This document shows positions 7,760-20,281 of a DNA stretch of 23,991 nucleotides, piece by piece. Both the position numbers and the translations under genes were made by a program. The notes beneath the pieces are model-generated. The model worked only from the letters and a program-made list of their open reading frames with translations. It was not told the origin of the DNA and ran no database searches. The stretch covers positions 1 through 23,991 of the IMG/VR virus record IMGVR_UViG_3300009526_000062; one strand, 5' to 3'. Origin of the DNA: a virus. Each line of letters opens with the position of its first letter. Positions within the stretch are counted from its first letter, which is position 1.

Positions 7760-8155
7760 CTAACTTATTTCTGATTTATCTTCACTTAAATTTTTAGTAT
7801 TAATGTATCCAGCACCTCTTGTAGGATCTAAACCTTCTTCATCAAGAATATTTTGAGCTATTGTTCTGAACCAACCATCTACTATTTGTTCATTTGATTC
7901 TCCTTTGTAGCCTGCATCTAACAATTTCTCAATAAACTCATTGTTCCAATCCAGTTCAAAGAACCCGTTTCTTATGTTGTCTCCATTAATTTTTGTGTCT
8001 AACACAGCAACCCAAGGTTCACCTTTTGCTGTTGCTTGTTCTTTTTCTTTCATTAATGCATCTAACTTTGGATTTTTACTAGTTTCTTTAGAAGTTGTTT
8101 CTTTCTTCTTAATAAACTTGTCCTTTACTTCTTTAATTTTCTTAATGATGTCCAT
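7760..8155 (-). CDS. Conserved marine T4-like phage protein, function unknown (131 aa)
   Basis: A lysine-rich N-terminal helix (about 1-30) precedes a folded part with GEPWVAVLDTKINGDNIRNGFFELDWNNEFIEKLLDAGY and QIVDGWFRTIAQNIL (about 45-106). This block resembles a conserved uncharacterised family of marine T4-like phages. No catalytic residues can be named. The ATG at 8155 has GGAG upstream and stands 32 nt after the end of queE (8188); the stop is 8 nt before the next gene. Its place between queE and the nuclease genes may be historical rather than functional. Confidence 0.6.
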   Translation of the reverse strand: MDIIKKIKEVKDKFIKKKETTSKETSKNPKLDALMKEKEQATAKGEPWVAVLDTKINGDNIRNGFFELDWNNEFIEKLLDAGYKGESNEQIVDGWFRTIAQNILDEEGLDPTRGAGYINTKNLSEDKSEIS

Positions 8156-8187
8156 TATTATTCTCCATTTTTTCCTTGTTTATTTTA

Positions 8188-9087
8188 TCAAGTCCCCCAG
8201 GCATTTCCGAATATGTCGACGTGTAGTCTAGGAGTGTATCTCCATCCTTTTGCCATTGCCAATTCGGCAACTCTTTTTGTGTTGAGTGTGTATGTTTCTG
8301 ATCTGCCTCCCAGTGGCATGACATAAACGGGAACGTTGACTCCCACTTGATTGAACTCGGCAACTGCTTGTGCAACTTCATCAACATCGGAAGAATCAGC
8401 AACCACAAATTTGAAATACATTTCACTGTTAGGAATCCCATTATAAGACCTAGCAATTTCAGGTTTAATAGCAGTGTCCCACGGTTCACCTGATACGGAA
8501 AGTTTTGGAGAGCATGACCAAGTGACTTGGAATCTGTTTTGTTTTCTAAGATAGTCTTCAAAATCCTTATGTAAAGTCTGCGTTGTGTTTGTTTCGAAAG
8601 TAACATTTTTTAAATCCTTCATTCTTGGATGTTCAAATAGTTCGATGTATGTTCTTTGCCATCCTAACAAAGGTTCACCGCCTGTTAAAATAAAGTGTAC
8701 ATCTTGTCCATTAGACATAGTCCACTTGCCTTCGGGAGTTAAAGATAATATATGATCCACAACCTCGTCAACAGTTTTATCCATCATGAACTTTTTAAAC
8801 TCAGGATAGATACTGGCATAAGTGTCACAGCCTGTATGAATTATTGGCAAGTCTTCAAACTTATCCACTTTGTCGATAATCCCCTCATCTAACAACTTCT
8901 TAACTTCTGGATTGTATTTTATTCCTTGTTTGAGTTTTTCTGCTCTGTTTGGTTCTTTATCTAATCCAAAGTTCATACAACGAAAATTACAACCAAATGT
9001 TCTTAAGAACACACTGGGTACTCCAACAAAACGTCCTTCGCCTTGTATGGAATAAAATGCTTCTGAATATCGAAGTTTACTACTCAT
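8188..9087 (-). CDS. queE: QueE-like radical SAM enzyme (7-carboxy-7-deazaguanine synthase)
   Basis: Probable 7-carboxy-7-deazaguanine synthase, which rearranges carboxy-tetrahydropterin to the deazaguanine ring. The N-terminus RYSEAFYSIQGEGRFVGVPSVFLRTFG (6-32) and the LTGGEPLL motif (134-141) are typical of QueE. The cluster region is unusual: Cys33 and Cys37 are present as CNFRC, but the third cysteine expected at residue 40 is Phe. The nearest later cysteine is Cys87 (IHTGCDTYAS), after an insertion of about 45 residues, and probably supplies the third iron ligand. At 299 residues it is longer than E. coli QueE (223). folE lies directly upstream (4-nt gap), and a QueD-like gene and a DpdA-like gene lie elsewhere in the window, which supports a 7-deazaguanine pathway. 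Another radical SAM reaction cannot be excluded. Confidence 0.8.
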   Translation of the reverse strand: MSSKLRYSEAFYSIQGEGRFVGVPSVFLRTFGCNFRCMNFGLDKEPNRAEKLKQGIKYNPEVKKLLDEGIIDKVDKFEDLPIIHTGCDTYASIYPEFKKFMMDKTVDEVVDHILSLTPEGKWTMSNGQDVHFILTGGEPLLGWQRTYIELFEHPRMKDLKNVTFETNTTQTLHKDFEDYLRKQNRFQVTWSCSPKLSVSGEPWDTAIKPEIARSYNGIPNSEMYFKFVVADSSDVDEVAQAVAEFNQVGVNVPVYVMPLGGRSETYTLNTKRVAELAMAKGWRYTPRLHVDIFGNAWGT

Positions 9088-9091
9088 TGAT

Positions 9092-9766
9092 TTAGTTATG
9101 ACCTTTCATGCTTAAACATATATCATAGAACTCTTTCTTAAGAGGAGCATGTTTATCAAACGCACCCAACATGATAGCAGTTGTCATATCTGATTCATGT
9201 TCTCTTACACCTCTGTGTGTCATGCAATGATGTTCTGCTTTGATCAGTACAGCCACATTTGGAGTCTTTGCATATTTTTGTAATGCTTCAGAAATCTGTG
9301 TTGTCATTTCTTCCTGTATCTGAGGTCTTTCAGCAATGTGATGAACTAATCTATTAAATTTAGATAATCCAATAACTTCTTTTTCTGGAAGAACACCTAT
9401 CCAACACTTACCTACAATATTCTGAAAGTGATGAGCACAAGTTGATTTAACACTGATTGGACCACTTGTGTATAAACTTCTATAACCCATGTTAGGAAAA
9501 GAAGTAATTTTAGGCGGTTGAACAAATCTACCACCAAATATTTCTTTTATGTACATTTTAGCAACACGTCTTGCAGTCTCTTTTGTGTTGTGATCATTTT
9601 CAGTATCAATTACTAATGCATCGAGTACTCCTGAAAATGAATCTTCAACTTCTTTCTGAAGTTCTTCCAACTCGCCTTGTTCTACAAAATCAGCAATATT
9701 GTCATTGCTATGAAATCTAACGTCTTTTTCTTTAAGCCTTTGTCTTATTCGTTCAGATGCTTTCAT
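9092..9766 (-). CDS. folE: GTP cyclohydrolase I
   Basis: Converts GTP to dihydroneopterin triphosphate, the first step of both folate and 7-deazaguanine synthesis. The 224-residue length and core match FolE: zinc ligands Cys110 and His113 in STCAHHF, and Cys181 in HHCMTHRGV (179-187), with IGLSKFNRLV (132-141) between. The usual CEHH has become CAHH, a substitution at a position normally held by Glu, which may be a phage-type variant. Its ATG overlaps the stop of a small upstream gene as TAATG, with GAGG before it, and queE follows after 4 nt. This folE-queE pair, under the promoter at 10003-10031, makes a pathway to carboxy-deazaguanine more likely than folate supply. Confidence 0.9.
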   Translation of the reverse strand: MKASERIRQRLKEKDVRFHSNDNIADFVEQGELEELQKEVEDSFSGVLDALVIDTENDHNTKETARRVAKMYIKEIFGGRFVQPPKITSFPNMGYRSLYTSGPISVKSTCAHHFQNIVGKCWIGVLPEKEVIGLSKFNRLVHHIAERPQIQEEMTTQISEALQKYAKTPNVAVLIKAEHHCMTHRGVREHESDMTTAIMLGAFDKHAPLKKEFYDICLSMKGHN

Positions 9767-9978
9767 TAATTCCTCTTGATGTATGTTTCTAAAACTTCTA
9801 ATTGATCATGGTATTCAGCAATCACTTTTAATTCTTTTTCTATAGTTTCAAGAATGTCTCCGTGTTCACCAATTCCCACAGCCTTCTCCATGTATATTTC
9901 AACATTGGCTTTGTGTTTTTCTATATGTCCTTTGGCGTGTGCCACAAGTGCATCATATATGTGTTGTCTACTTGCCAT
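9766..9978 (-). CDS. Small helical conserved phage protein
   Basis: A 70-residue, almost entirely helical, His/Glu/Lys-rich protein (YDALVAHAKGHIEKHKANVEIYMEKAV, then KELKVIAEYHDQLEVLETYIKRN). It looks like a helical hairpin and would probably dimerise. Similar short proteins occur in marine T4-like phages. It is the first gene behind the strong promoter at 10003-10031, has GGAG upstream, and is coupled by TAATG to folE, so it leads the folE-queE operon. Function unknown. Confidence 0.6.
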   Translation of the reverse strand: MASRQHIYDALVAHAKGHIEKHKANVEIYMEKAVGIGEHGDILETIEKELKVIAEYHDQLEVLETYIKRN

Positions 9979-10002
9979 TTTTATTTCTCCTATGTTATTA
10001 CT

Positions 10003-10031
10003 ATATTAACAAATTTTATCTAATTTGTCAA
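10003..10031 (-). promoter_or_regulatory. Sigma70-type early promoter of the folE-queE operon
   Basis: Minus strand: -35 TTGACA at 10026-10031, 17-bp spacer, -10 TAATAT at 10003-10008. It overlaps the 3' end of the SGNH hydrolase gene and lies about 25 nt before the 70-residue gene that leads into folE and queE. The leader contains TAGGAG. Confidence 0.8.
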
Positions 10032-10614
10032 TGATTTGTTTAAGAACAATTTGGTTTCCTTCTTCAGTGTAGTGATTAATTTCACCTCTATGTTCATGCC
10101 AAATATCTGTTAAATCTAATGTGTTCTTTTCAAAAGCAAATTGGTTACTGATACTAAAATTGTCCACAGCCAAATATGGAATTGGTATGAATCTGTTTAT
10201 TTCTTCACGTAAAATTTGATATAGATCTTTTTGGTACTCATCATCGTAATGATGATAAAACCAATTTTTAGCAGTTTTCAACCCTGGATTGAACCAATCA
10301 ACTTTATCGTGTAAATCAGAGTATATCAAATCACAATGTTTATGTAACCCTTGTTTGTGTACAGGATGTTTAGGTGTGTGTATTCTGCTAGGACTAGTAT
10401 GACACACAATAACACAATCATAATTGTTAACCCAATACGAATCATGAGCACTTAAATCATGTAATTGTTTCAGTATTTTATATTCTCCCACACCAGCCTG
10501 TGCCAAATTGTTCACAGCATGAGTTTCGGATAATACCAAAGGCCAACCGATACCTTCACCACCGGGCCATTCACAACCAAAACTGTCGCCTGTTATTAAT
10601 ATTCTTTTAGCCAT
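10006..10614 (-). CDS. SGNH/GDSL-family hydrolase-like protein (first of a tandem pair)
   Basis: A 202-residue protein with the opening strand and nucleophile of SGNH hydrolases, RILITGDSFG (4-13, Ser11). NLAQAGVGE (37-45) fits the second block with its glycine, and a C-terminal NHYTEEGN (180-187) has the histidine expected of the last block. The family removes acyl or acetyl groups from sugars, lipids or other small molecules. It overlaps the neighbouring SGNH-like gene by 19 nt and both are similar in plan, so they may be old duplicates. No signal peptide is visible, so it probably acts in the cytoplasm. The substrate is unknown; the nearby glycosyltransferase suggests sugar chemistry as one option. 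Confidence 0.65.
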   Translation of the reverse strand: MAKRILITGDSFGCEWPGGEGIGWPLVLSETHAVNNLAQAGVGEYKILKQLHDLSAHDSYWVNNYDCVIVCHTSPSRIHTPKHPVHKQGLHKHCDLIYSDLHDKVDWFNPGLKTAKNWFYHHYDDEYQKDLYQILREEINRFIPIPYLAVDNFSISNQFAFEKNTLDLTDIWHEHRGEINHYTEEGNQIVLKQIIDKLDKIC

Positions 10615-11414
10615 TTCAAATATTCTGTTGCTATTATTGTATGATATTGATTGTTAAAATGTTCTTTGTCTTCAATAAAATAATCTTCTGCTTTGTGTCC
10701 TAATGTATTTAGATGTTGTTCCACACTCTGTTCAGCTCTTTTCAGGGTATCAATTTTACCAAAATAATCTGACTCACTGGGCCACACACCTCTGCTTCTA
10801 AAATTAAACACATACAACTTTGTGTTATTTGCTGTACACATCTTATCCCACATATACATATTTTTTAAAAATTCTCTTTTTTCTATTATAGTGTTGCACT
10901 CGTAAAACAATTTTACAGACATATAAGGATCTTTTCTTAGATCAGGTGATGTCAACCCATGTTCTGCTGAAAAGCCAATACTTGGTATTTTTTTATAATC
11001 ATCCCCCACAGGCTTCTGTAATATCTGCACAGTGTTTCCTGCAACAGGTTGATCAGAAAATTTTCTAACATTTTCAGTTGATTCTGGATGTTCGTATGTG
11101 AATTGATCTAATGGACCTGCTTCATGTTGTAAGTCTGGATCAAAACTTAATTCTATTCTATTCAACGGAGCCAAACAAATAAACACTTCGTCGATATCGT
11201 TATATTTAGAAAACATATTAGCCAACCAAATTGTGTACAAGTTGTTAGTTGCACCTGGTTGAGCATAAATTATAATGTCTTTATTGTGAATTTCAGAATA
11301 TTTTACTGCGTAATTATTATCGTTCCAAAATGTAAAACTACCTGGACCAACTTGTCCTTCAATGGTTTTATATCCTACTGTGTGGCTATCGCCTATAAAA
11401 AGTGATCTGCTCAT
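10596..11414 (-). CDS. SGNH/GDSL-family hydrolase-like protein (second of a tandem pair)
   Basis: A 272-residue protein starting SRSLFIGDSHTVGY, with the GDS nucleophile motif (8-10), a second-block IYAQPGATNN (about 49-58) and a late histidine in the C-terminal segment FNNQYHTIIA. It is larger than its downstream neighbour and contains an extra middle part (about 90-190) with no recognisable motif. It lacks a signal peptide. The ATG at 11414 overlaps the oxygenase stop as ATGA and its end overlaps the smaller SGNH-like gene, so all three are expressed together from the promoter inside the phosphoribosyltransferase gene. The fold call rests on the N-terminal motif; activity and substrate are inferred only. 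Confidence 0.6.
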   Translation of the reverse strand: MSRSLFIGDSHTVGYKTIEGQVGPGSFTFWNDNNYAVKYSEIHNKDIIIYAQPGATNNLYTIWLANMFSKYNDIDEVFICLAPLNRIELSFDPDLQHEAGPLDQFTYEHPESTENVRKFSDQPVAGNTVQILQKPVGDDYKKIPSIGFSAEHGLTSPDLRKDPYMSVKLFYECNTIIEKREFLKNMYMWDKMCTANNTKLYVFNFRSRGVWPSESDYFGKIDTLKRAEQSVEQHLNTLGHKAEDYFIEDKEHFNNQYHTIIATEYLKWLKEY

Positions 11415-11977
11415 TGTTTTACCTTTATATCAAAGTTTGCAATACAACGTGGGCCATTTTTAGGAATCCCACCTCCATGCATTATTTTACCATTAAAGAT
11501 AATTGCTCTACCTTTTTTTGGCTCAACTGATTTTATAATTTTTCCATCATTGTCAAAAAATACTGTATCTCCATCTGCATCATTAACAAAATAAATCACT
11601 GCCATATGATCTACTTCTATATCAATGTGAGGTGCATAGTGTGTTAGTTCTGTTGCATGTGGTACTGTGATAAACACCCTTGCCAACATAATATTTTGCA
11701 ATATTAAATCATTTACATTGCACAAAGCCTGAGCCACCATTCCAAAATTGTCAAGGTGTTTACTGATTGATGTATGTGATTTAAGCAAATGTACAAAACT
11801 TAACGGCGGTTGATTTGTTTCTTTAGCAGTTATTTCATATTTGCATTTAAAATCAACACTGGGATCAATGAACTCTTCGCCTTTGTTTTTAACACCTAAT
11901 GTAATTAACTCAAGATGATCTTGCAAATAAGCAGGTATTAGATCATCATAAACTTTGATAAATGGTTCATTATTCAT
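11411..11977 (-). CDS. 2-oxoglutarate/Fe(II)-dependent oxygenase (prolyl-hydroxylase-like)
   Basis: A 188-residue dioxygenase of the 2OG-Fe(II) class, which hydroxylates a protein, nucleic acid or small molecule. The iron site is visible: His117-x-Asp119 in YAPHIDIE, distal His167 in GKIMHGG, and Arg177 in GPRCIANFDI to hold 2-oxoglutarate. I place the start at ATG 11977, giving MNNEPFIKVYDDLIP, which is the usual N-terminal pattern of this group. It overlaps the HIT gene stop; an earlier alternative start would add 11 residues. Marine T4-like phages often carry several such oxygenases. The target is unknown; neighbours include SGNH-like hydrolases and a HIT protein, so carbohydrate or nucleotide chemistry is possible. 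Confidence 0.8.
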   Translation of the reverse strand: MNNEPFIKVYDDLIPAYLQDHLELITLGVKNKGEEFIDPSVDFKCKYEITAKETNQPPLSFVHLLKSHTSISKHLDNFGMVAQALCNVNDLILQNIMLARVFITVPHATELTHYAPHIDIEVDHMAVIYFVNDADGDTVFFDNDGKIIKSVEPKKGRAIIFNGKIMHGGGIPKNGPRCIANFDIKVKQ

Positions 11978-12353
11978 TTTTTGTGTAATCCCCTTTGCCT
12001 GGTATAACATTCCTTACACCACCTTTGGGATTTTCACAATCACCTTTTTTCCTAGGAATAAGATGAACGTGTGGATACATCACAGTTTGCCCTGCCGCTT
12101 CACCAACATTGATCCCAACATTGTATCCGTCAACAACACCTTTGGCAACATTGTCATTGCCTATTTTAATTGCAAGTTCAACACATCTAATAAGTCTTTC
12201 TTGTGTTGCTTCTTTAGGCACTATTAAAGAATGTCCTTCTGTAACTGGATATCCGTCATTGTACCACATCATGTCTTTAAAATCATACACCACATCTGTC
12301 CAAGGTGCTCTTCCGTCTTTCTTTGCTTTTTCTAATGTGTCTACTTCTATCAT
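11970..12353 (-). CDS. HIT (histidine triad) family nucleotide-binding protein
   Basis: A 127-residue HIT protein that would hydrolyse or transfer nucleoside phosphates. The motif GQTVMYPHVHLIPRKKGD (88-105) keeps the two critical histidines, His95 (nucleophile) and His97, while the first of the usual triad is Tyr93. Upstream PVTEGHSLIVPKE (36-48) matches the HIT N-terminal half. I chose the ATG at 12353, giving MIEVDTLEKA: it has GGGAG 8 nt upstream and overlaps the phosphoribosyltransferase stop as TAATG. A perfect promoter lies about 50 nt upstream inside that gene. The substrate is unknown; the neighbouring purine phosphoribosyltransferase suggests nucleotide metabolism. Confidence 0.85.
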   Translation of the reverse strand: MIEVDTLEKAKKDGRAPWTDVVYDFKDMMWYNDGYPVTEGHSLIVPKEATQERLIRCVELAIKIGNDNVAKGVVDGYNVGINVGEAAGQTVMYPHVHLIPRKKGDCENPKGGVRNVIPGKGDYTKNE

Positions 12354-12802
12354 TACCATTGCTCCCAAGGAAATACAATCCATTGTGGATTTTCTTCTTT
12401 GTTTATATTATAGCACCAATAATCTAATGTGTCAAACTTGCTTGGCTTATTGTGTATGATTGCGGCTGTTTTTACTCTGTCTTCTCCACCAAAATTTTCA
12501 CGAATGAATTTGAATGTGCTACCGGAATCATTAATGTCATCGATAATTAATATTTTTTTTTGAAATGCATAGGCTTTTTCTAGATTAGATAAATCTGGTT
12601 TTGCTTTATGATCTCTCAATCTAACGTCTAATACTTCGTGTGGAATATGCATTCGATGACTCATATACACACCAGGAATACATCCACCTCTGTTGATACC
12701 CATAACAAGGTCAGGTTCAAATCCATCTTTACCCATTTGCTCACAGATTTTATCCATGCCGTTTCGAACCTGTATCATTGTAAAATAAACTTTATTGTCC
12801 AT
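12353..12802 (-). CDS. Purine-type phosphoribosyltransferase (Gpt-like)
   Basis: A 149-residue type I phosphoribosyltransferase, which joins a free base to PRPP to give a nucleotide. The PRPP-binding signature ILIIDDINDSGST is at 84-96, and the N-terminal DLVMGINRGGCIPGVYMSHRM (31-51) matches xanthine/guanine phosphoribosyltransferases, which share this short length. A plausible role is recycling guanine to GMP; a DpdA-like enzyme in the same genome would free guanine from DNA by base exchange. It is coupled to an upstream unknown gene and to the HIT gene downstream by TAATG overlaps. Base specificity cannot be settled by eye, so uracil or hypoxanthine are less likely alternatives. Confidence 0.8.
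   Translation of the reverse strand: MDNKVYFTMIQVRNGMDKICEQMGKDGFEPDLVMGINRGGCIPGVYMSHRMHIPHEVLDVRLRDHKAKPDLSNLEKAYAFQKKILIIDDINDSGSTFKFIRENFGGEDRVKTAAIIHNKPSKFDTLDYWCYNINKEENPQWIVFPWEQW
12407..12435 (-). promoter_or_regulatory. Perfect-consensus sigma70 promoter inside the phosphoribosyltransferase gene
   Basis: Minus strand: -35 TTGACA at 12430-12435, exact 17-bp spacer, -10 TATAAT at 12407-12412. Both hexamers are perfect. The site lies within coding sequence (codons for FDTLDYWCYN) and about 45-50 nt before the HIT gene ATG at 12353, so it should add transcription of the HIT, oxygenase and SGNH genes. Confidence 0.75.
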
Positions 12803-13152
12803 TAGTAGTTCTCTTCATCTGGGTTTTTAGAACAATAATCTGTATAACAGATTCTCCAAACGTTCTTAAATTTTTCATATGCTATTTGTAATGAAGGATA
12901 ATCGTCACACACTTTATCTATAGTTTCTAAAGTTGGTACTGTGTCTTCAAAAGGTTTACCAGGTAAGAAATCGTCAAACTTCATATTTTCAAAACCTTTC
13001 CCTGCATCTGGACCAAAGTCAATTGGTGCTGTGATAGACATTGATGATGGTGAGGATGTCGAATAACTCACAACCGGTCCTGATGAACTACTAGTGAGTG
13101 ACTCAGAATCGACACTCCATATTTCTTCTTCTTGTTTTTTACTAATTGTCAT
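12802..13152 (-). CDS. Conserved small phage protein, function unknown (116 aa)
   Basis: A 116-residue protein with a Ser/Thr/Pro-rich, probably disordered first half (about 15-45) and a conserved-looking folded end: GKPFEDTVPTLETIDKVCDDYPSLQIAYEKFKNVWRICYTDYC (about 65-107). The end resembles an uncharacterised family in marine T4-like phages. There is no membrane segment or catalytic motif. The ATG at 13152 has AGGAG upstream. Its end overlaps the phosphoribosyltransferase start as TAATG, so the two are co-translated. No clear promoter was found in the 25-nt gap before it. Confidence 0.6.
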   Translation of the reverse strand: MTISKKQEEEIWSVDSESLTSSSSGPVVSYSTSSPSSMSITAPIDFGPDAGKGFENMKFDDFLPGKPFEDTVPTLETIDKVCDDYPSLQIAYEKFKNVWRICYTDYCSKNPDEENY

Positions 13153-13177
13153 ATAAATTTAACTCCTTTAAGATATA

Positions 13178-13738
13178 TTAATATAACTCTTCTACTTTAT
13201 CACAAATCTTAAGTCTTTTTGCTTCTTTGGCATCTAACCACACATCCTGTGGTGGCAGTAAAATTTCTCTAATTTGTTTTTCGTTCATGCCTATACATTT
13301 TTTGTAGTGTTCAATCATTCGTTTTGTACTCAGTTCGAATTCTTTAACTCTTGCATACAGTTCGTGTTCTTTACCTGCACTGCCCCAACTGTATTGGTGT
13401 GATAGTATTGCAGTATTAGGTGTTAATATTCTTGAACCTTTTTTACCTGCTATGAATAATAAAAATCCACATGACGCAATTAATCCTAATCCCACAGTTT
13501 TAATTGGTATAGTACTCGCTTTCATTGTATCAATCAATGCAAATGCGGCGTGTACATCTCCACCAGGTGAATTAATTATCAAAGTTAGTTGTGGTAATCT
13601 TGTGTCTGCTAGATTGTGATTCATAATCCACTGAATGCAACTTCTACAAGATTCCATTGTGATGTCTTCCATCAAAACGTAAATACCGTTAGATGCTAGA
13701 TTATTTTGTTGTTCTGGTGGTCGTCCTTTTTTAGCCAT
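13178..13738 (-). CDS. clpP: ClpP-like serine protease
   Basis: A 186-residue ClpP-family peptidase. The substrate-binding SPGG (57-60), nucleophile Ser89 in IASCGF, His114 in LSHQYSWG and Asp165 in PPQDVWLDAKEA match the ClpP catalytic triad, so it should be active. I start it at ATG 13738 (MAKKGRPPEQ), which has GGAG 9 nt upstream; an earlier in-frame start would add five residues. It overlaps the glycosyltransferase end by 8 nt. No ClpX or ClpA is encoded in this window, so it may use host ATPases or a phage one; the MoxR-type ATPase here is not a known ClpP partner. Marine T4-like phages have similar clpP genes. Confidence 0.85.
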   Translation of the reverse strand: MAKKGRPPEQQNNLASNGIYVLMEDITMESCRSCIQWIMNHNLADTRLPQLTLIINSPGGDVHAAFALIDTMKASTIPIKTVGLGLIASCGFLLFIAGKKGSRILTPNTAILSHQYSWGSAGKEHELYARVKEFELSTKRMIEHYKKCIGMNEKQIREILLPPQDVWLDAKEAKRLKICDKVEELY

Positions 13739-14783
13739 TTGATAAAACTCCATATAGTTTATTGCCTGAAAAATATTGTTCTTTCAGTTTTGTTTTTTGT
13801 TTTATAACAGCAGGAGCATACTTTGAATAGTTTTCCATGTAATCATCTATCTTAGCCATCAACTGTTTTTTGTGTTTTCTGTAACTTTCCATATTCTCTG
13901 TCCATTCACTTGGGTATAAGAATTCATTTAGTGCCATCTCTTTGTAACTTAATCTGTCAGGCATCATTGGAATAACTCCAAGTATAGCACCTTCATACCA
14001 ACTGATACCTAATGTTTCTTGTAGATTAGCACTGAACATTAATTTTGCTTCTCCTAACAAGTTATGATATTCGTTTTTAGATAAAGTTTTTTCCTGACAA
14101 ACCACAAATTCATATTGTGGTAAAGCATTTTTTAAATCTTGAAATATAGCAGGTTGTTTTTCAGGAGCCATTCTATGTGGGAAAAGAATAATATCTTTCT
14201 TCTCCATGTTCTGATACATATCCAAAGTGTGTTCCATATACTCCATGGGCCAACCTACTTTTACAACTTTATCATTGTCTCTGGCTTGTGTAAATGTTTT
14301 AGAAAATAAATCAATATGAAATTGTGTAGCAAAGAAATTGTGATCAAATGTATCAAACATTGCCTGTTCTGTGTTTCTTACCCAAGGTTTATCTCCAATC
14401 AGTCTACCTAAGAAGTCTTGCGGATCATATGAACCGGCGTGCCACATACCGCCTATCTTAATTTTTACTTTTAACAGTTCTGCCATATACTTTAATTGTA
14501 ATACTGTGGGATTCCATGCATCTGTATACAAAAAGTAATCACCATCTTTTATTTTGCCATCGCAGAACAATTTACCTATCTGTTGCATTTGATTGGCTTT
14601 GTAAACATTAGTGCCACCAAAGTTTAAAAATGCTCCAGGTGTAGTTGCTTGTGGAGTATCTCCGCCACTAATAGACACAACATCCAAATTAGTAGCACGT
14701 TTAAGTTGTTTAGGAAGATTAGACTTCCATTCCTTTGTGTACCTTGTGTCAACTGCTTCTAAGTCTACTATATAAATTGTCAT
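13731..14783 (-). CDS. GT-B fold glycosyltransferase (GT4-like)
   Basis: A 350-residue transferase with the layout of GT-B enzymes. The second domain carries FPHRMAPEKQP (201-211), where Arg204 and Lys209 would bind the nucleotide-sugar phosphates, and ANLQETLGISWYEGAILG (252-269), an E-x7-E motif (Glu256, Glu264) characteristic of GT4-type enzymes. Such enzymes add a sugar to another sugar, lipid, protein or modified base. It shares an ATGA junction with the 54-residue membrane protein upstream and overlaps clpP downstream. Its place in the DpdA-to-QueD region makes glycosylation of a modified base one hypothesis; surface or virion glycosylation is equally open. Confidence 0.75.
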   Translation of the reverse strand: MTIYIVDLEAVDTRYTKEWKSNLPKQLKRATNLDVVSISGGDTPQATTPGAFLNFGGTNVYKANQMQQIGKLFCDGKIKDGDYFLYTDAWNPTVLQLKYMAELLKVKIKIGGMWHAGSYDPQDFLGRLIGDKPWVRNTEQAMFDTFDHNFFATQFHIDLFSKTFTQARDNDKVVKVGWPMEYMEHTLDMYQNMEKKDIILFPHRMAPEKQPAIFQDLKNALPQYEFVVCQEKTLSKNEYHNLLGEAKLMFSANLQETLGISWYEGAILGVIPMMPDRLSYKEMALNEFLYPSEWTENMESYRKHKKQLMAKIDDYMENYSKYAPAVIKQKTKLKEQYFSGNKLYGVLSNG

Positions 14784-14944
14784 TTATTGTCCATGTTTAA
14801 AATAATTGTTAGTCCGGCAAATGCTCCGAACGAATAAAAGTAAATGTCATTTAGCATTTCATTGCCGCCTGTTAGTGGATGAGGCATAGTAATACCAAAT
14901 CCTATTAAACAGGCAAAAGCAATAATACCGGACAAGTAAATCAA
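14780..14944 (-). CDS. 54-residue two-helix membrane protein with TTG start
   Basis: A short gene between the QueD-like and glycosyltransferase genes. The TTG at 14944 lies 3 nt after the upstream stop, with GAGG about 8 nt before it. The stop TGA overlaps the ATG of the glycosyltransferase (ATGA at 14783-14780), as in the other coupled pairs here. The product (initiator, then IYLSGIIAFACLIGFGITM, a short loop PHPLTGGNEMLND, then IYFYSFGAFAGLTIILNM) has two hydrophobic segments of membrane length. It fills an otherwise empty 163-nt gap exactly. No function can be assigned; it may anchor the glycosyltransferase or act alone. Reading-frame fit and hydrophobic pattern support it; the TTG start is inferred. 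Confidence 0.6.
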   Translation of the reverse strand: MIYLSGIIAFACLIGFGITMPHPLTGGNEMLNDIYFYSFGAFAGLTIILNMDNK

Positions 14945-14947
14945 GGA

Positions 14948-15331
14948 TTAATCCTCAACATGGTAGATGCTCTCACTACCATTTTCACCATCTTCGCTAA
15001 CGTTGATGATAATCTCTCTACCTGGGTATTTTTTAGTAATTGTTTCATATAGATCATCACTTATCATTTCGCAAGATTTATAATCCAACTGTAAAGTTTT
15101 TTCTGCATACAGTTTTTCTAACCATCTTTTGAATTGAATAAATTCAATGTCTCGATCATCGTGAAATACTTCAATCTCAACTTTAAAATGAAATATATGT
15201 CTGTGAGGATACCCTAAAAATGATACATCATACTCGTCGCCTGTTGCTAATTTTGGATCATCCAATGCCGCAGGATATTTGTGAATGCCTTCTTTTTTAA
15301 ATGTTACCCATATAAATGTTTTTTTATTCAT
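14948..15331 (-). CDS. QueD/PTPS-like T-fold protein (probable)
   Basis: A 127-residue protein whose layout matches 6-carboxytetrahydropterin synthase (QueD, about 120 residues). His17 (GIHKYPAA) and the His43-x-His45 pair (YPHRHIFHFKVEIEV) fall where QueD has its zinc ligands (AAHRL and HGH). IEFIQFKRWLEKLY (62-75) matches the IDF-ELK helix, SDDLYETI the SE-LA-WI helix, and Glu113 (NVSEDGENGSESIY) the pterin-anchoring glutamate. The catalytic Cys that normally precedes the HxH pair by four residues is missing, so it may be a divergent or altered enzyme. QueD would link FolE and QueE in 7-deazaguanine synthesis. The gene has a perfect sigma70 promoter only 5 nt upstream, so its mRNA should be leaderless. 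By-eye alignment, moderate confidence in the fold. Confidence 0.55.
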   Translation of the reverse strand: MNKKTFIWVTFKKEGIHKYPAALDDPKLATGDEYDVSFLGYPHRHIFHFKVEIEVFHDDRDIEFIQFKRWLEKLYAEKTLQLDYKSCEMISDDLYETITKKYPGREIIINVSEDGENGSESIYHVED

Positions 15332-15336
15332 AACTA

Positions 15337-15365
15337 ATTATAGCAATTTTATTCGTCTGTGTCAA
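15337..15365 (-). promoter_or_regulatory. Perfect-consensus sigma70 promoter, probably leaderless
   Basis: Minus strand: -35 TTGACA at 15360-15365, 17-bp spacer, -10 TATAAT at 15337-15342; both hexamers are perfect. Only 5 nt lie between the -10 and the ATG at 15331, so the transcript should begin at the start codon. It overlaps the 3' end of the upstream 175-residue gene. Confidence 0.85.
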
Positions 15366-15876
15366 CGTCAATTACTGTATCTCCCACATATTCTTTCCAA
15401 TCTGTATAGTGCATATCCTTGGTAATTTCTTTTAGGTTTCTGCTCCAAACACCTGTGTTTGAATGTCCCCAAGTAACATCATCTATTTTAAGAGTAGCAT
15501 TACTATTCACTTTGTAAATGTTTGGAATTTTAGCACTTATCATTGGAATAAATTTTTTATAACTCATTAAACCTGTACTTGTAACAGTTTCCATATATTC
15601 TATACCAAAATCAAGTGTTATCCAAAAGTCTTTGTCTAATAATGATTTGATCATTTCATACCACGGCTTTATCTGTTGTTCGTTGTTGATAACAAAACTT
15701 TGACTAGTTCCAAAATATATGTGTTTTGCTTTGTGACTGACAGCCAATTTTTCAATTTCTTCAGCGGATCTAACACCAACCACAAAAAGTGTTTGCCAAC
15801 CTTTTGCTATTGTGTTTTCTATCTCGGTACCTGTAAAGTATATTACCTGTTTTCTTTTTGCTGTGTCTAAAGCCAT
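15349..15876 (-). CDS. Unknown protein next to the QueD-like and dehydrogenase genes
   Basis: A 175-residue soluble protein I cannot assign. It has alternating strands and helices (KQVIYFTGTEIENTIAKGW, QTLFVVGVRSAEEIEKLA, FWITLDFGIEYMET) and a conserved-looking end (LKIDDVTWGHSNTGVWSRNLKEIT, then HYTDWKEYVGD). There is no PP-loop, so it is not QueC, and no zinc or radical SAM site. The ATG at 15876 has GAGG upstream and overlaps the MDR dehydrogenase end by 10 nt. I have the impression that marine T4-like phages carry similar proteins. Its position in the deazaguanine/sugar region makes it a candidate partner, without further evidence. Confidence 0.6.
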   Translation of the reverse strand: MALDTAKRKQVIYFTGTEIENTIAKGWQTLFVVGVRSAEEIEKLAVSHKAKHIYFGTSQSFVINNEQQIKPWYEMIKSLLDKDFWITLDFGIEYMETVTSTGLMSYKKFIPMISAKIPNIYKVNSNATLKIDDVTWGHSNTGVWSRNLKEITKDMHYTDWKEYVGDTVIDVDTDE

Positions 15877-16769
15877 TCTATGTATCCTCTGCTGTATCCT
15901 GGCATTCTTTGATTGCCTTCTTTAAAAGCATCATGCCATTCTGTTTTTCTATTATATCCTTTGCTCCAAAATTTATCTATGTTCAAAGCACCCTTTTCAA
16001 TCATGTTAACTGCTGTCTTCATACATCTTTGAAAATCTTTTTGTCTAGGAGATGGAAACACAACAGTGACAGCATTCCATAACAGTTTGCTAAATGATGT
16101 TGTAATTTTATCTGTTTTCTCTGCACCTAGCACAATTAATCCTTGTGGTTTTATGATATCTCTTACAAAGACTTCATCTCTAGTGTTTAAATCTATCACA
16201 ATATCATACATTCCTTCAAATGTATCTTTTAAATTGTCGCCCCAACGTTCTTTGTTGTGACTGCCTATTACATCTATTTGAAAGAAATAATTAGCACTTA
16301 GATATTGATACACAACCCAACTAAGAAATCCACTGCCTATAATGGCAATTCTTGATTCTTTGCTGTTACGTTTTTCAAACTGGTATTCTTCTTGCATGAC
16401 TACATTCAATCCACAAGCAACTGGTTCTATGATGTATTTAGGGTCTGCTTCAGGAACACTTACATAAGTTCCTTTATCAGCATTGTATTGATCAGCATAA
16501 GCAGGCTCACCCCTTGTTGCAACATAATCTCCCACATCAATATCTTTTACTTCGCTACCTATTTCTAACACTTCACCTAAACCTTCATGACCTTGCATGT
16601 TCAAAGGAAGTGGACCAAAGTCTCCATTCATCATATCTATATCACTTCTACACACACCAGTAAAAACACTTTTTACTCTTATTTGATCGGAGGTAATATC
16701 AGGTACTTCAAAATCACCTTCTTTGAATTCGCCTTTACCTTCAGTGTATAATATCTGTACTTTTGTCAT
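15867..16769 (-). CDS. Zinc-dependent MDR (alcohol-dehydrogenase-like) oxidoreductase
   Basis: A 300-residue medium-chain dehydrogenase. The GroES-like N-terminal domain holds the catalytic zinc ligands Cys40 (TGVCRSD), His61-Glu62 (QGHEGLGEVLEIG) and the late Glu115 (IIEPVACGLN). A Rossmann motif, IAIIGSGFLS, follows at 141-150. The structural-zinc cysteine lobe is absent and the protein is shorter than typical (about 340). I chose ATG 16769 because AGGA lies just upstream; a longer frame would reach into the previous gene without a ribosome site. It overlaps the MocA-type gene by 29 nt. The pair of dehydrogenases suggests a sugar or polyol conversion; the substrate is unknown. Confidence 0.8.
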   Translation of the reverse strand: MTKVQILYTEGKGEFKEGDFEVPDITSDQIRVKSVFTGVCRSDIDMMNGDFGPLPLNMQGHEGLGEVLEIGSEVKDIDVGDYVATRGEPAYADQYNADKGTYVSVPEADPKYIIEPVACGLNVVMQEEYQFEKRNSKESRIAIIGSGFLSWVVYQYLSANYFFQIDVIGSHNKERWGDNLKDTFEGMYDIVIDLNTRDEVFVRDIIKPQGLIVLGAEKTDKITTSFSKLLWNAVTVVFPSPRQKDFQRCMKTAVNMIEKGALNIDKFWSKGYNRKTEWHDAFKEGNQRMPGYSRGYIEWL

Positions 16770-17652
16770 TAATTTTTTCCTGTATGTATAAATCTTGTTC
16801 CAATTGATTGTTCCAAAACATATCATCTTCTAGATGTATCAAACTGTCTTTGATCATTTCTTTATATGCTTCTTCTGGACATAATCCTAAAGGTATTGAT
16901 GCTAAATGTGATTCTCCATCTTTGTAAAAATGTATAGCCATGTCATCGTGTAAGTTAGTTTTCCAATTAGCATACAGTATATAGGTTTTGTTACCATCTG
17001 TCAATTCCATAGTGGCTGAATCATCTACATCATAAACTCCATCTTCATTGACAACACCATAATCTGTGCCTGTGCAATCTGACAAGTTCCATCGTTGCTC
17101 TGTGTGATACTGTTTAACTTTAAAATCTTGATAACTGTTCTTGTTCACTGACATCATTATACTCATTAAGTGAGGCAATAAATCTCTACTCACACCACCA
17201 AATGCTTTGCTCTTATCTGTAAACCATGTTCCTGGACCAGGAATTCTATTTTTGTTTACCCAGTTGATCTGTATCATATCACTTGCTTCACAATTTTCTG
17301 CTATCTGTTTGATATTGTTTCTCCACTGATTGTTCTTTGTCATCATAAATCTTGTTGACTTATTTAGGTTCGTAAGCAATCTCCAGTGATTAATTGTTTC
17401 CACACCTGGCTTCTCCACAAACACAATCTTTGTGTGTTCTGCTAATTTTAATGCTGTCTTGTAGTGTAAATGATTAGGCACACAAATATGAGCAGTGTCA
17501 AATGGTGCATGAGCTGTTATGGCTGTTGTAAGTTCTGTAAAGTCTGCACCAGCATTAGGATTTATATCTACAGTAATCACTTCATGTCCCATTCTTTTTA
17601 GAATGCTAACGTATAACTGTCCAAATCCTAATCCAACAACCAAACTTTTCAT
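16741..17652 (-). CDS. Gfo/Idh/MocA-family NAD(P)-dependent oxidoreductase
   Basis: A 303-residue dehydrogenase of the Gfo/Idh/MocA family, usually acting on sugars, sugar nucleotides or inositol. The N-terminal Rossmann fold has SLVVGLGFGQLY (3-14) with Asp29 after the second strand (ITVDIN, favouring NAD). HICVPNHLHY (55-64) and FVEKPG (78-83) are the signature loops of the family. The C-terminal half has the open beta-sheet pattern of the substrate domain. The next gene is an MDR dehydrogenase, overlapping by 29 nt, so they are a co-translated pair. An internal promoter-like site lies at 16976-17004. Nearby glycosyltransferase and DpdA-like genes allow a role in making a sugar for base or surface modification. 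Confidence 0.8.
   Translation of the reverse strand: MKSLVVGLGFGQLYVSILKRMGHEVITVDINPNAGADFTELTTAITAHAPFDTAHICVPNHLHYKTALKLAEHTKIVFVEKPGVETINHWRLLTNLNKSTRFMMTKNNQWRNNIKQIAENCEASDMIQINWVNKNRIPGPGTWFTDKSKAFGGVSRDLLPHLMSIMMSVNKNSYQDFKVKQYHTEQRWNLSDCTGTDYGVVNEDGVYDVDDSATMELTDGNKTYILYANWKTNLHDDMAIHFYKDGESHLASIPLGLCPEEAYKEMIKDSLIHLEDDMFWNNQLEQDLYIQEKINDKSTDIIH
16976..17004 (-). promoter_or_regulatory. Possible internal sigma70 promoter in the MocA-type gene
   Basis: Minus strand: -35 TTGACA at 16999-17004, 17-bp spacer, -10 TATACT at 16976-16981 (one mismatch). It lies in coding sequence, about 200 nt before the MDR dehydrogenase start. It shares the exact spacing of the other promoters here but is less certain. 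Confidence 0.4.
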
Positions 17653-17654
17653 TG

Positions 17655-17846
17655 TTATAATGTATCCTGCATTTTCTTTAATTGTGTTTTTAAAAACAGT
17701 TTCATCTTTTTAAATTTTAAAAGAATTTCTTTACTGCCCCATGATCTATCATAAGAACGTTCAGACTCCATTTCATTAACTTTACTCTTGTACCAGTTGT
17801 ATTCTTTCTCAACTGACTTTACTTTTCTACTTTTTCTTATTGCCAT
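17655..17846 (-). CDS. Small basic helical protein, function unknown
   Basis: A 63-residue Lys/Arg-rich protein (MAIRKSRKVKSVEKEYNWYKSK, then SKEILLKFKKMKLFLKTQLKKM), mostly helical and likely to bind nucleic acid. The start at 17846 is set by a strong GAGGAGG about 8 nt upstream and lies 1 nt after the stop of the DpdA-like gene; the longer open frame that begins inside that gene has no ribosome site. The stop is 2 nt before the MocA-type ATG, so it is co-transcribed with both. It may be an accessory factor for the DpdA-like enzyme, on context only. Confidence 0.55.
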   Translation of the reverse strand: MAIRKSRKVKSVEKEYNWYKSKVNEMESERSYDRSWGSKEILLKFKKMKLFLKTQLKKMQDTL

Positions 17847-17847
17847 T

Positions 17848-19329
17848 TTAAGCCTCCTCAAATAGGTTAGAAAATTGTGTACTTGCATTCACTGTCTTTT
17901 TACCTGTTGCTCCTCTAGTGCCAATGATTGACATCCAGAATCTTGAAAACTCTTCGATTACCATGTTTGCCTCATCTCTACTGCTGGTGGCAAATATGGC
18001 ATCCACAATATCTTTAAAAGCAACTCTATCAAACTTCTCTTCAACCAACATTTTAGGATTTAAACCTAAATCATATTGACGATTTGCTTCTTGCACTGCT
18101 GAAATATGTGTCCACACATTGTGTGCCATTTGTAGTGTGTAACTGAATGAGTCCCAAGATGTTCTACCTTCATTGCCCATCTTGTTTAAATCACCCGGTT
18201 TATAACAGGTAACATCTTTCAGCATCAATCTTTTACTGATAGGACTGTCCATAAATCTTTCAAATATACCTTTTTCTAATACAGCATCTCTAAACAATTT
18301 TGTTTCTGTTGAAAAATCTTTATTATCAACACTTGGTTGCATTCTGTATGTCCATTTCTTTTTGTCTTTAATTTCTATGTCAGTGTAAATTTGACCATTA
18401 GCACTGGCTAAGAAAGGTGAAGCACAATCAAATGTGATCATAAAGTTTGGATTGTGATACTTTCTAATTGCTCTTTGAACATCTGTTAACAACACTGCCC
18501 ATTCTAATTTACTTGTTCCTAAAAAGTGCATAACATCATGCACACCTTTTTCTAATAATCCATCAAATCTCAATGCCACTAGACGTTTCAATGCCAAGTG
18601 TATATCACACATGTTCTGTCCACCCATTGCCCAACCATTAAAGTGTGTGCTAGGAAATTGTTTAGGATCACAGTAGTGTTTCATTTGTGTGTACCAATCA
18701 TCTGCTTGTTGAAAGTTTTCACCTTGCAGTACATTTAAAAATTTACAATTACCGTTACGATTTTTCATAAAGTAATCATTGTTGATTTTTGTGCCATCAA
18801 CTGCTTCTTGATATGAACTGATTTTACTTGCCGCCGCACCTGCAGGAGAACGAGATACCCAAGCAGGTATATCTAATATCATACCATAATCCATGTTGCC
18901 ATCCATAAACGCCAACACTTGTTCACGTTTCTTTTTGGCTTTAGGACAATTGACATCTTTCCAGTCGCCTTCCCAAACACCTTTACCTATTTGGAAACCA
19001 CCCGAGTCACCTAGTACCCAGTTATCTTTTCTATCTCTGTTTCTGATGATGTCGTCTCTCACAGAAAAGTGATCCATATTTAAATCAGCATGACCCGCCG
19101 AATATAAATGCCACTTGTAATAGAAATAAGTGTCTTTAGAACTCAAATAATTCATACCCTCAATATCATGTTCAAAGTTCTGTGGAACTCTTTCAGGTTT
19201 AATGTAGTCTTCTTGATGTCTTGCTTTACCAAGATCCCTAGCATAAAAACTGCTCAAAGCAGGAAGAAAAGTTGCGTAGTCCTTCTGCTTTTCAGTTAGG
19301 TTGTCAGTGGGTATGTTTTTCTTTTCCAT
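17848..19329 (-). CDS. dpdA: DpdA-like DNA-guanine transglycosylase (TGT fold)
   Basis: A 493-residue member of the tRNA-guanine transglycosylase superfamily. It probably exchanges guanine in DNA for a 7-deazaguanine base. Numbers here count from an upstream in-frame TTG, three residues before the ATG. DSGGFQ (111-116) is the base-binding signature with its catalytic Asp. LQGE (204-207), GWAMGG (235-240) and HFLGTSK (271-277) match the TGT barrel, and FDCASP (303-308) holds the expected nucleophile Asp304. The CxCxxC zinc site that tRNA enzymes have after this point is missing, and the protein is longer than bacterial TGT (about 375), as in phage DpdA. FolE, QueE and a QueD-like protein in the same window support the DNA role. 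I use ATG 19329, 1 nt after the upstream stop. A tRNA substrate is the main alternative. Confidence 0.8.
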   Translation of the reverse strand: MEKKNIPTDNLTEKQKDYATFLPALSSFYARDLGKARHQEDYIKPERVPQNFEHDIEGMNYLSSKDTYFYYKWHLYSAGHADLNMDHFSVRDDIIRNRDRKDNWVLGDSGGFQIGKGVWEGDWKDVNCPKAKKKREQVLAFMDGNMDYGMILDIPAWVSRSPAGAAASKISSYQEAVDGTKINNDYFMKNRNGNCKFLNVLQGENFQQADDWYTQMKHYCDPKQFPSTHFNGWAMGGQNMCDIHLALKRLVALRFDGLLEKGVHDVMHFLGTSKLEWAVLLTDVQRAIRKYHNPNFMITFDCASPFLASANGQIYTDIEIKDKKKWTYRMQPSVDNKDFSTETKLFRDAVLEKGIFERFMDSPISKRLMLKDVTCYKPGDLNKMGNEGRTSWDSFSYTLQMAHNVWTHISAVQEANRQYDLGLNPKMLVEEKFDRVAFKDIVDAIFATSSRDEANMVIEEFSRFWMSIIGTRGATGKKTVNASTQFSNLFEEA

Positions 19330-19330
19330 A

Positions 19331-19546
19331 TTATCCAAATGCCTTTATTGCTAAAAGTGGAACCAACCAAGGAAACACCAAATGTTCAATTAACTCATAA
19401 ATTACCAACACAGAGAGCAGTATTGCCCACAGTCTTGATGTTCTTGCTTTATGACTCACATATGTAAAAATTTTCGAATGCCATGCTCCGATCTTTTCCA
19501 CAATACCTGGTTTGTTACTTTTTACAGTCGTTCTCTTTTTAGCCAT
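19331..19546 (-). CDS. Small single-pass or hairpin membrane protein
   Basis: A 71-residue protein with a basic, lysine-rich N-terminal part (MAKKRTTVKSNKPG) and a long hydrophobic stretch, RLWAILLSVLVIYELIEHLVFPWLVPLLAIKAFG (38-71), which would span the membrane once or form a hairpin. The start at 19546 has AAGGA just upstream, 6 nt after the clamp gene stop. It ends 1 nt before the DpdA-like ATG. It is part of the clamp-DpdA transcript. The function is unknown; similar small proteins are seen in marine T4-like phages. Confidence 0.6.
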   Translation of the reverse strand: MAKKRTTVKSNKPGIVEKIGAWHSKIFTYVSHKARTSRLWAILLSVLVIYELIEHLVFPWLVPLLAIKAFG

Positions 19547-19552
19547 ATGTCC

Positions 19553-20281
19553 TTATTTTGTTTGTGCAGGCAGTATGTAATTGTATTCACCAATTCCACT
19601 ATCCACAGTTATTTGCATTGCTCCTTGATCAGAAATACTCATTTTAACTTTTCCGTCAAGACTCAAAATACTGATCACTTGTTGTATCGGCCAACTCCAA
19701 GTGTTTTTTAATTCACCTGTTAGATTAGATTCAAATACAAATGATCCTGCGTGTGAATTAGCATCACCAAAATAAAACATCAATGTGTTGTTTTCTGTTT
19801 TTATAGTAAACACAGTTTCTTCAACATGTGCCGCCGCTTGTAATTTCAATCTGTGTATTGCCGCAAGTTTAGGTTCAAAATTAATATCCCAATTAGACCC
19901 TTTAAATTTAACAGACTTTAACTTTTCATTAATAATTTCAGTACTCATAAATCTGTAATCATTTTTAAAATCTCCACCTGCATTTTCAAAGTGAATATGT
20001 GTTGGAATAGTTTTACCATTTCTTTCTGCTGATTTGATTTCGATCTTTGCTTCTTTTTGATACTCTGGACATTTTAAGTGTAAAGCCAGTTTGTCTAAAT
20101 TAGGCATACCAAATACACCATCGAATTCGTTCACTTTAGTATTTGTGTTTGCTGAAAGAATAACTGATCTGTCTTCAGCCATACTTTCTATTTTTGTTTG
20201 TTCTTCGTTACTCACTTTTACAAGGCTAAGAAATCCTAGCGAATGTGTATGTGCAACGATGTCTTGTAAGATGTCTTTCAT
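19553..20281 (-). CDS. Sliding-clamp-like protein (gp45-type, divergent)
   Basis: A 242-residue protein that I read as a divergent DNA polymerase sliding clamp; T4 gp45 has 228 residues. Supporting features are a two-domain repeat of strand-rich segments, FDGVFGMPNLDKLALHL (53-69) where gp45 has its NLNGFLGILSL-like interdomain segment, and a C-terminal QITVDSGIGEYNYILPAQ (223-240) typical of phage clamps. The resemblance to T4 gp45 is weak, so a paralogue or clamp-like regulator remains possible. It stands close to DNA polymerase, whose C-terminus has a clamp-binding-like tail, and is driven by its own strong promoter at 20305-20333 with GGAG in the leader. The gp44/gp62 loader genes are not in the window. 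Confidence 0.55.
   Translation of the reverse strand: MKDILQDIVAHTHSLGFLSLVKVSNEEQTKIESMAEDRSVILSANTNTKVNEFDGVFGMPNLDKLALHLKCPEYQKEAKIEIKSAERNGKTIPTHIHFENAGGDFKNDYRFMSTEIINEKLKSVKFKGSNWDINFEPKLAAIHRLKLQAAAHVEETVFTIKTENNTLMFYFGDANSHAGSFVFESNLTGELKNTWSWPIQQVISILSLDGKVKMSISDQGAMQITVDSGIGEYNYILPAQTK

Follow-up and report, generated by a model that had tools for sequence, protein, structure and literature searches.

The window analysed here is a 23,991-base stretch of viral DNA (positions 1 to 23,991 of IMG/VR record IMGVR_UViG_3300009526_000062) that carries a candidate system for replacing guanine in phage DNA with a 7-deazaguanine base made without the enzyme QueC. Its genes lie mostly on the - strand. 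Homologues of the 20886-23555 product are annotated as phage DNA polymerases, the product of 19553-20281 has a sliding clamp as homologue, and we read the window as a fragment of a probable T4-like marine phage; a megablast search with bases 8000-20000 found no close relative in the named phage collection. An earlier note on this DNA had assembled a 7-deazaguanine system from four open reading frames, encoding FolE, QueE, a QueD/PTPS-like protein and a DpdA-like transglycosylase. All four are present on the - strand (Table 1), the last with an alternative TTG start upstream. A glycosyltransferase (GT) gene, which the note had not linked to the system, proved to be conserved with them.

Table 1. 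Features of the candidate modification module and its surroundings in the window.
Feature	Position	Strand	Basis or remark
FolE, GTP cyclohydrolase I	9092..9766	-	PF01227 E 2.5e-45
QueE, 7-carboxy-7-deazaguanine synthase	8188..9087	-	PHROG 2076 'QueE-like radical SAM' E 1.1e-50
DpdA-like guanine transglycosylase	17848..19338 (TTG start) or 17848..19329 (ATG start)	-	predicted TGT fold, invariant motifs
PHROG 17812 protein, second QueD-like T-fold protein, 127 aa	14948..15331	-	PHROG match, model, conserved residues
GT4-like glycosyltransferase, 350 aa	13731..14783	-	PF00534 in family members; conserved adjoining PHROG 17812
175-aa protein, function unassigned	15349..15876	-	usually between DpdA and PHROG 17812
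Purine-type phosphoribosyltransferase	12353..12802	-	PF00156 E 7.5e-13
GFO/IDH/MocA oxidoreductase, accessory	16741..17652	-	PF01408 E 1.1e-7
Zinc-type alcohol dehydrogenase, accessory	15867..16826	-	PF08240 E 8.8e-11
Perfect extended sigma-70 promoter-like site, 12/12	15337..15365	-	directly before PHROG 17812 start codon

FolE and QueE are both where the earlier note had placed them. The FolE match exceeds the PF01227 cut-off, and the NCBIfam models match below theirs, for FolE as for QueE (equivalog cut-offs in the latter case). Residues C33, C37 and C87 of QueE are invariant in 15 sequences. The cluster motif of this QueE is CX3C, followed after 49 residues by the third cysteine (GCDT); the long insert between the second and third cysteines is also found in KVP40, PA5oct and X1, and the short form occurs in phiST, ACP17 and Methanosarcinales.

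The DpdA-like protein has no informative match in Pfam, PHROG or NCBIfam, and a profile search of PDB sequences yielded nothing for its family. The 20 best Foldseek matches to its AF2 model (mean pLDDT 88.3) are all tRNA-guanine transglycosylases (TGT), with a probability of 1.00 but TM-scores of only 0.30-0.41 (query length), and VIA superposed 305 residues on 2ash at 4.5 A (Z 18.2). The product of 17848-19338 thus has the TGT fold on which the earlier note had made its case depend. It contains the motifs DSGGFQ, LDIP and FDCAS, and D111-S112-G113-G114-Q116, D156, Q205, G235 and D304 are invariant in 35 sequences; the TGT-type catalytic Asp and base-recognition motifs are present in the family, its Asp residues presumably corresponding, by eye, to D102, D156 and D280 of the Zymomonas TGT. 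To judge from the phage context only, the enzyme would act on DNA.

The product of 14948-15331 belongs to PHROG 17812, a family without assigned function. Its model (pLDDT 94.0) is a T-fold with QueD-type architecture, for which E. coli QueD ranks first in Foldseek (E 2.6e-4) and VIA gives Z 11.8 with archaeal PTPS and 11.1 with QueD. These scores make membership of the T-fold superfamily firm and QueD/PTPS the nearest member by both programs. In sequence searches, none of 27 family members matches the PTPS family PF01242 (Pfam, E 0.1), four copies matched no NCBIfam model, a profile search of PDB sequences gave only weak matches (E 0.2 or worse), and a viral scan with the phiST copy found no relative.

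Conserved residues separate this protein from the QueD of the pathway. In 36 sequences H17, H43, H45 and E88 never vary and E113 hardly does, and the three histidines and the SCE motif are invariant across phage, bacterial and archaeal members. Of the residues of QueD, PHROG 17812 thus retains three His of the metal-binding kind and two Glu of the ligand kind. In ten QueDs taken from these or similar genomes there is in addition a Cys (C38), located shortly before the HG(H/Y) motif, and an Asp-His pair (D81-H82), both with catalytic roles in QueD. At the Cys position PHROG 17812 has Leu39 (by-eye alignment on HxH; invariant in 36) or Val36 (hhalign), and at the Asp-His position it has Glu-Lys. 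We examined 26 named phages, 11 carriers of PHROG 17812 (one per lineage out of 26 phage records) and 15 non-carriers. Ten of the 11 carriers encode a separate PTPS-family QueD (residues inspected in four), and G003, a relative of the window 148 kb in length, has one too (78403-78786, Cys and Asp-His intact). The lost residues and the separate QueD indicate that PHROG 17812 is a second, remodelled T-fold protein. Thus the earlier note was right about the QueD/PTPS-like fold, and the QueD step it had assigned to this gene is not supported: the lack of a PTPS match, the loss of Cys and Asp-His and the separate QueD in carriers speak against this gene as the pathway QueD. Bakedbeans and MA9V-3 have larger proteins that end in a PHROG 17812 domain at the C-terminus (L234:5230-6381, L235:5461-6342).

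The family also occurs in loci whose fetched flanks show no transglycosylase. Two Methanosarcinales contigs (L225, L226) have PHROG 17812 with QueD, QueE and FolE, and no DpdA or GT in the fetched flanks, which suggests that the protein goes with the genes for 7-carboxy-7-deazaguanine (CDG), or with metabolism after QueE, rather than with DpdA. A methyltransferase also lies in the L225 cluster and ABC-transporter-like genes were seen by eye, and the gene set looks like a 7-deazapurine metabolite cluster. In Streptomyces NEAU-Y11 (L227/L228) a distant homologue stands beside QueD, FolE and a deaminase, with no QueE found in the flanks. These occurrences bear on the idea that PHROG 17812 is a base-binding partner of DpdA and no enzyme. 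The protein is small, has conserved ligand-type residues and usually lies in the gene run of DpdA, as such a partner might; however, three His and the SCE motif are invariant over phage, bacteria and archaea, and neither the Methanosarcinales nor the Streptomyces loci have DpdA in the fetched flanks. We consider a binding role very improbable.

The earlier note had seen no QueC in the window, and a QueC profile matches none of 200 stop-to-stop frames. Profiles built here for QueC and QueD both fail to match these frames, and those for the other five families match once each; the QueC profile used for loci had one seed at first and gave the same result when rebuilt with three. The 148-kb relative, whose DpdA is 96% identical, has no QueC-family match. 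The suggestion that QueC lies elsewhere in the phage is unlikely to be correct, since a strong QueC was found in 0 of the 11 named carriers and in 0 of 32 large IMG/VR records with PHROG 17812; the same counts argue against QueC having been missed because the window is a fragment. "Strong" here means at least 120 bits, a line set after the scores were seen (the lowest strong score is 121.7 and the highest best score beneath it 35.9).

Strong QueC was present in 12 of the 15 non-carriers, and QueC above the family cut-off in 14 of the 15 and in one of the 11 carriers (Fisher p-values 4.9e-5 and 2.1e-5, nominal only, as the phages are selected and partly related). This contrast is flattered, which counts against our interpretation, because several non-carriers were selected as known QueC phages: 9g, nt-1 and CAjan had been chosen for their published QueC and Bipper for its published lack of it, and relatives occur among the records. 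More weight can be placed on the count of zero in carriers. A swap can be seen between phages that share a transglycosylase family: nt-1, KVP40 and pf16 have QueC and no PHROG 17812, and ACP17, X1 and BUCT-ZZ01 show the reverse.

If the standard preQ0/archaeosine route were in use, with QueC supplied by the host or very divergent, PHROG 17812 would be an accessory. Hosts can have QueC, Bipper too is without it, and D479 has a weak QueC-family match. The lack of strong QueC throughout the carriers and IMG/VR records would nevertheless be unexpected if PHROG 17812 were an accessory, and the two Methanosarcinales contigs retain it near FolE, QueD and QueE; we regard this route as unlikely.

Conservation of gene order ties the GT to the other two proteins. 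Of the 219 fetched loci that contain PHROG 17812 (not deduplicated), 174 show the order DpdA, PHROG 17812, GT. Among well-flanked loci, split by finding query prior to deduplication, DpdA and GT were each present in 54 of the 55 found via two PHROG 17812 scans and in all 35 found via a DpdA scan. After deduplication, 68 of 148 distinct IMG/VR loci had sufficient flank; 67 of these have DpdA, 67 GT, 66 both, 64 FolE, 58 QueE and none QueC. The arrangement is more than chance. It extends beyond phages to five Magnetospirillum/Rhodospirillaceae loci with the order GT-17812-DpdA-QueD; in Magnetospirillum the first three genes overlap and QueD comes next (the sequences are genome contigs, partly from metagenome-assembled genomes). 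As to the GT itself, with a limit of E 0.1 PF00534 (Glycos_transf_1) is matched by 17 of the 28 members of its family, the best at 8e-12, but not by the window's copy, and a profile search of PDB sequences gave only weak matches, E 0.2 or worse.

A tblastn search of 50,697 phage records found the GT family in 20, and in 16 of these PHROG 17812 is present as well; eleven of the 16 are close PA5oct-like phages, so that they amount to about five lineages. The remaining four are PhiXhv-12 and three records nearly identical to it in the GT gene. In PhiXhv-12, the only one of the four examined, a Gat-QueC fusion, a PIG-L deacetylase, a distant GT homologue and a GFO/IDH/MocA oxidoreductase are consecutive (L236:3669-7755). 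This row associates the GT family a second time with genes for 7-deazaguanine and also with sugar chemistry, and hints at an amino-sugar on deazaguanine. The Gat-QueC gene carries the annotation fructose-6-phosphate aminotransferase.

These data have to be set against another account, in which the 7-deazaguanine part is right and the GT and sugar-type genes are mere neighbours that serve another base or a surface glycan. The GT clusters of jumbo cyanophages are thought to make surface polysaccharide (PMC7824862), and the GT is missing from six of the 11 named carriers. On the other hand, the rarity of the family in phages and its concentration in records with PHROG 17812, the position of the PhiXhv-12 GT two genes past Gat-QueC and the overlapping genes of Magnetospirillum speak against it. 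We think this account less likely than not.

The GT bears equally on what is inserted. FolE, QueE and DpdA without QueC could act with CDG as the base that DpdA inserts (dCDG), PHROG 17812, QueD-like in fold, being then the pathway QueD or its helper; dCDG is reportedly a natural phage base (Cui, 2023). PHROG 17812 does not, however, have the Cys and Asp-His of the 10 companion QueDs, all but one of the 11 carriers have a PTPS-family QueD besides, and the GT would be left unexplained. Insertion of the carboxy form itself, which the earlier note had offered, is possible but less likely than further processing, because a second T-fold protein and a GT are the most constant companions of the system in relatives. 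We judge dCDG, with PHROG 17812 as QueD or its helper, to be an unlikely reading.

Our preferred reading is that PHROG 17812 processes CDG and that the GT decorates the product. FolE and a canonical QueD encoded outside the fragment would convert GTP to CPH4, from which QueE would make CDG. PHROG 17812 would act on CDG in the place of QueC, perhaps decarboxylating it to 7-deazaguanine; the DpdA-like enzyme would swap guanine in phage DNA for the processed base; the freed guanine might go to salvage by the phosphoribosyltransferase; and the GT4-like enzyme would add a sugar to the base in DNA. The modification may protect the DNA from host nucleases. A 7-deazaguanine modification system, as claimed by the earlier note, is well supported by FolE, QueE and the TGT-fold DpdA, and QueC-independent DNA modification of some kind is probable. 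What we observe are the family and fold assignments, which residues are kept and which are lost, how the genes are ordered and co-occur, and that carriers lack strong QueC. That the window holds most of a QueC-independent 7-deazaguanine DNA hypermodification module, in which PHROG 17812 processes CDG and the GT probably glycosylates, is on this basis an evenly poised proposition. The substrate and chemistry of PHROG 17812 are read from this context. Glycosylation of the inserted base by the GT seems to us a little short of an even chance. Decarboxylation of CDG by PHROG 17812 is a first guess, tentatively made, that draws on 7-deazaguanine and a predicted decarboxylase, DpdL, both reported from work on phage DNA. 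With similar reserve, we suggest that the phages and the Magnetospirillum gene run might make a glycosylated 7-deazaguanine in DNA by means of a repurposed QueD-fold enzyme, DpdA and a dedicated GT4-like enzyme, the sugar being possibly at C7. The base that is finally formed may not have been described before.

Several further observations weigh against this proposal. Other T-fold relatives score nearly as well as QueD by VIA (dihydroneopterin aldolase Z 10.4, QueF-like 9.8), and decarboxylation would follow from the position of PHROG 17812 in the pathway and the predicted activity of DpdL, not from identified catalytic residues. D479 shows no PTPS match, and its match to QueC is partial and weak, at 32.8 bits; 16 of 24 IMG/VR records are without a PTPS match, perhaps as fragments, and two of the 32 have short matches just above the QueC cut-off (24.7 and 22.9 bits). 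Six of the 11 named carriers have no GT, among them RHph_I1_18, D479, Ahp1 and Bakedbeans, in which three queries found no transglycosylase either. The absence from these four is not established, because such profiles also miss the known DpdA of 9g, and in these phages PHROG 17812 may work with a DpdA that escaped recognition, or with none. The complete set of DpdA, PHROG 17812 and GT is one of several arrangements.

Transglycosylases of carriers are of more than one type. By hhalign the window's DpdA family has no meaningful alignment to the 9g DpdA and only a weak one to a small transglycosylase candidate of phiST, which was recognised by eye from its motif and is present in six phage records from two lineages, all with PHROG 17812. 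The enzymes of ACP17, X1 and BUCT-ZZ01 form a second type, whose family also includes a protein from nt-1, KVP40 and pf16; among the 11 carriers its profile matched only its own seeds, ACP17, X1 and BUCT-ZZ01, and it missed 9g and Bipper.

Other genes of the run are conserved to different degrees. The 175-aa protein, whose family is present in 184 loci of the gene-neighbourhood survey, received no assignment from PHROG, NCBIfam or a profile search of PDB sequences; by tblastn (E 1e-3) its family is found among phages only in PA5oct-like phages and ACP17, all with PHROG 17812. The phosphoribosyltransferase family occurs in 106 loci, and the BUCT-ZZ01 homologue is near queE and queD; the enzyme could salvage guanine freed by DpdA. 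The alcohol dehydrogenase and the GFO/IDH/MocA oxidoreductase were considered as core genes and set aside as accessory, with 78 loci each versus 184 for the 175-aa protein. The oxidoreductase is possibly involved in sugar chemistry, and it is of the same Pfam family as the gene that follows the GT of PhiXhv-12. Some relatives have extra families in the module, named from one representative each: genes of sugar epimerase type in 18 loci, genes resembling DegT aminotransferases in 10 and a Vut_1 transporter in 6. The Vut_1 (PF02592) transporter, which we take to be of the YhhQ type, lies inside the module at L154:10616-11215. A GMP reductase/IMPDH-type gene (L176:6656-7675; family in 11 loci) possibly recycles guanine.

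The earlier note had placed the synthesis genes under early-type promoters, and the support for this is weak and partial. Perfect extended -10 sites lie ahead of the 14948-15331 and 11970-12383 genes. The window as a whole has 62 sigma-70-like sites versus 54.1 expected (sd 8.6), hence no overall excess of promoters, and the nearest good site upstream of folE (10031-10003) scores 10/12. The 15337-15365 site stops about 5 bases ahead of the PHROG 17812 ATG (15331), which would put the transcript start near the start codon; the transcript would be leaderless, or the promoter would serve downstream genes.

The 7-deazaguanine bases of phages have been explained mainly via QueC and preQ0. A deazaguanine synthesis and incorporation system was already noted in PA5oct (PMC7824862). 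Titles and abstract openings retrieved for deazaguanine, glycosyltransferase and phage gave no description of the module, and the searched literature had nothing on DpdL with 7-deazaguanine. Systems of this type are known; what did not appear in searchable papers is the replacement of QueC by a protein of QueD fold, provided that PHROG 17812 is not DpdL itself, and the GT associated with it. A widespread marine phage module would predict a base chemistry not described in those papers, a likely function can be offered for a strongly conserved family, PHROG 17812, and the module points to named, sequenced phages: PA5oct, ACP17, X1 and BUCT-ZZ01.

The module can be compared with several known systems. 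E. coli QueD/PTPS and PHROG 17812 have the T-fold, His and Glu in common, whereas the Cys and Asp-His are absent from the latter and Pfam PTPS is unmatched in 27 of 27. DpdA2-type phages such as nt-1 and KVP40 resemble the carriers in having a PTPS-family protein, QueE and the transglycosylase family common to ACP17, X1 and BUCT-ZZ01, and the KVP40 QueE shares the long insert of the window QueE; they differ in that QueC is present and PHROG 17812 absent. The nt-1 transglycosylase gene has the PTPS match on one side and the QueC match on the other, a position that fits published DpdA2, although the accession was unmatched. For nt-1 DNA, dPreQ0 is reported in two papers, one of which adds dG+ and dADG (PMC12028318, PMC8306585). 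Bipper, described as QueC-less (PMC6884629), lacks QueC in our search as well. The Gat-QueC archaeosine route of phage 9g has the same early genes as the window, and a distant homologue of the window GT stands beside Gat-QueC in PhiXhv-12; 9g itself differs in having QueC, in lacking PHROG 17812 and in its unalignable DpdA. The work of Cui in 2023 is said to describe dCDG and dDG as phage bases and DpdL as a predicted CDG decarboxylase; a QueC-less product of this kind would fit the window module, and PHROG 17812 may be DpdL. To our knowledge no glycosyltransferase figures in that work. The likeness that we propose for the GT is to T4, where a phage glycosyltransferase decorates the modified base hydroxymethylcytosine with glucose after replication; in the window the base and the chemistry would be different, and the enzyme is GT4-like.

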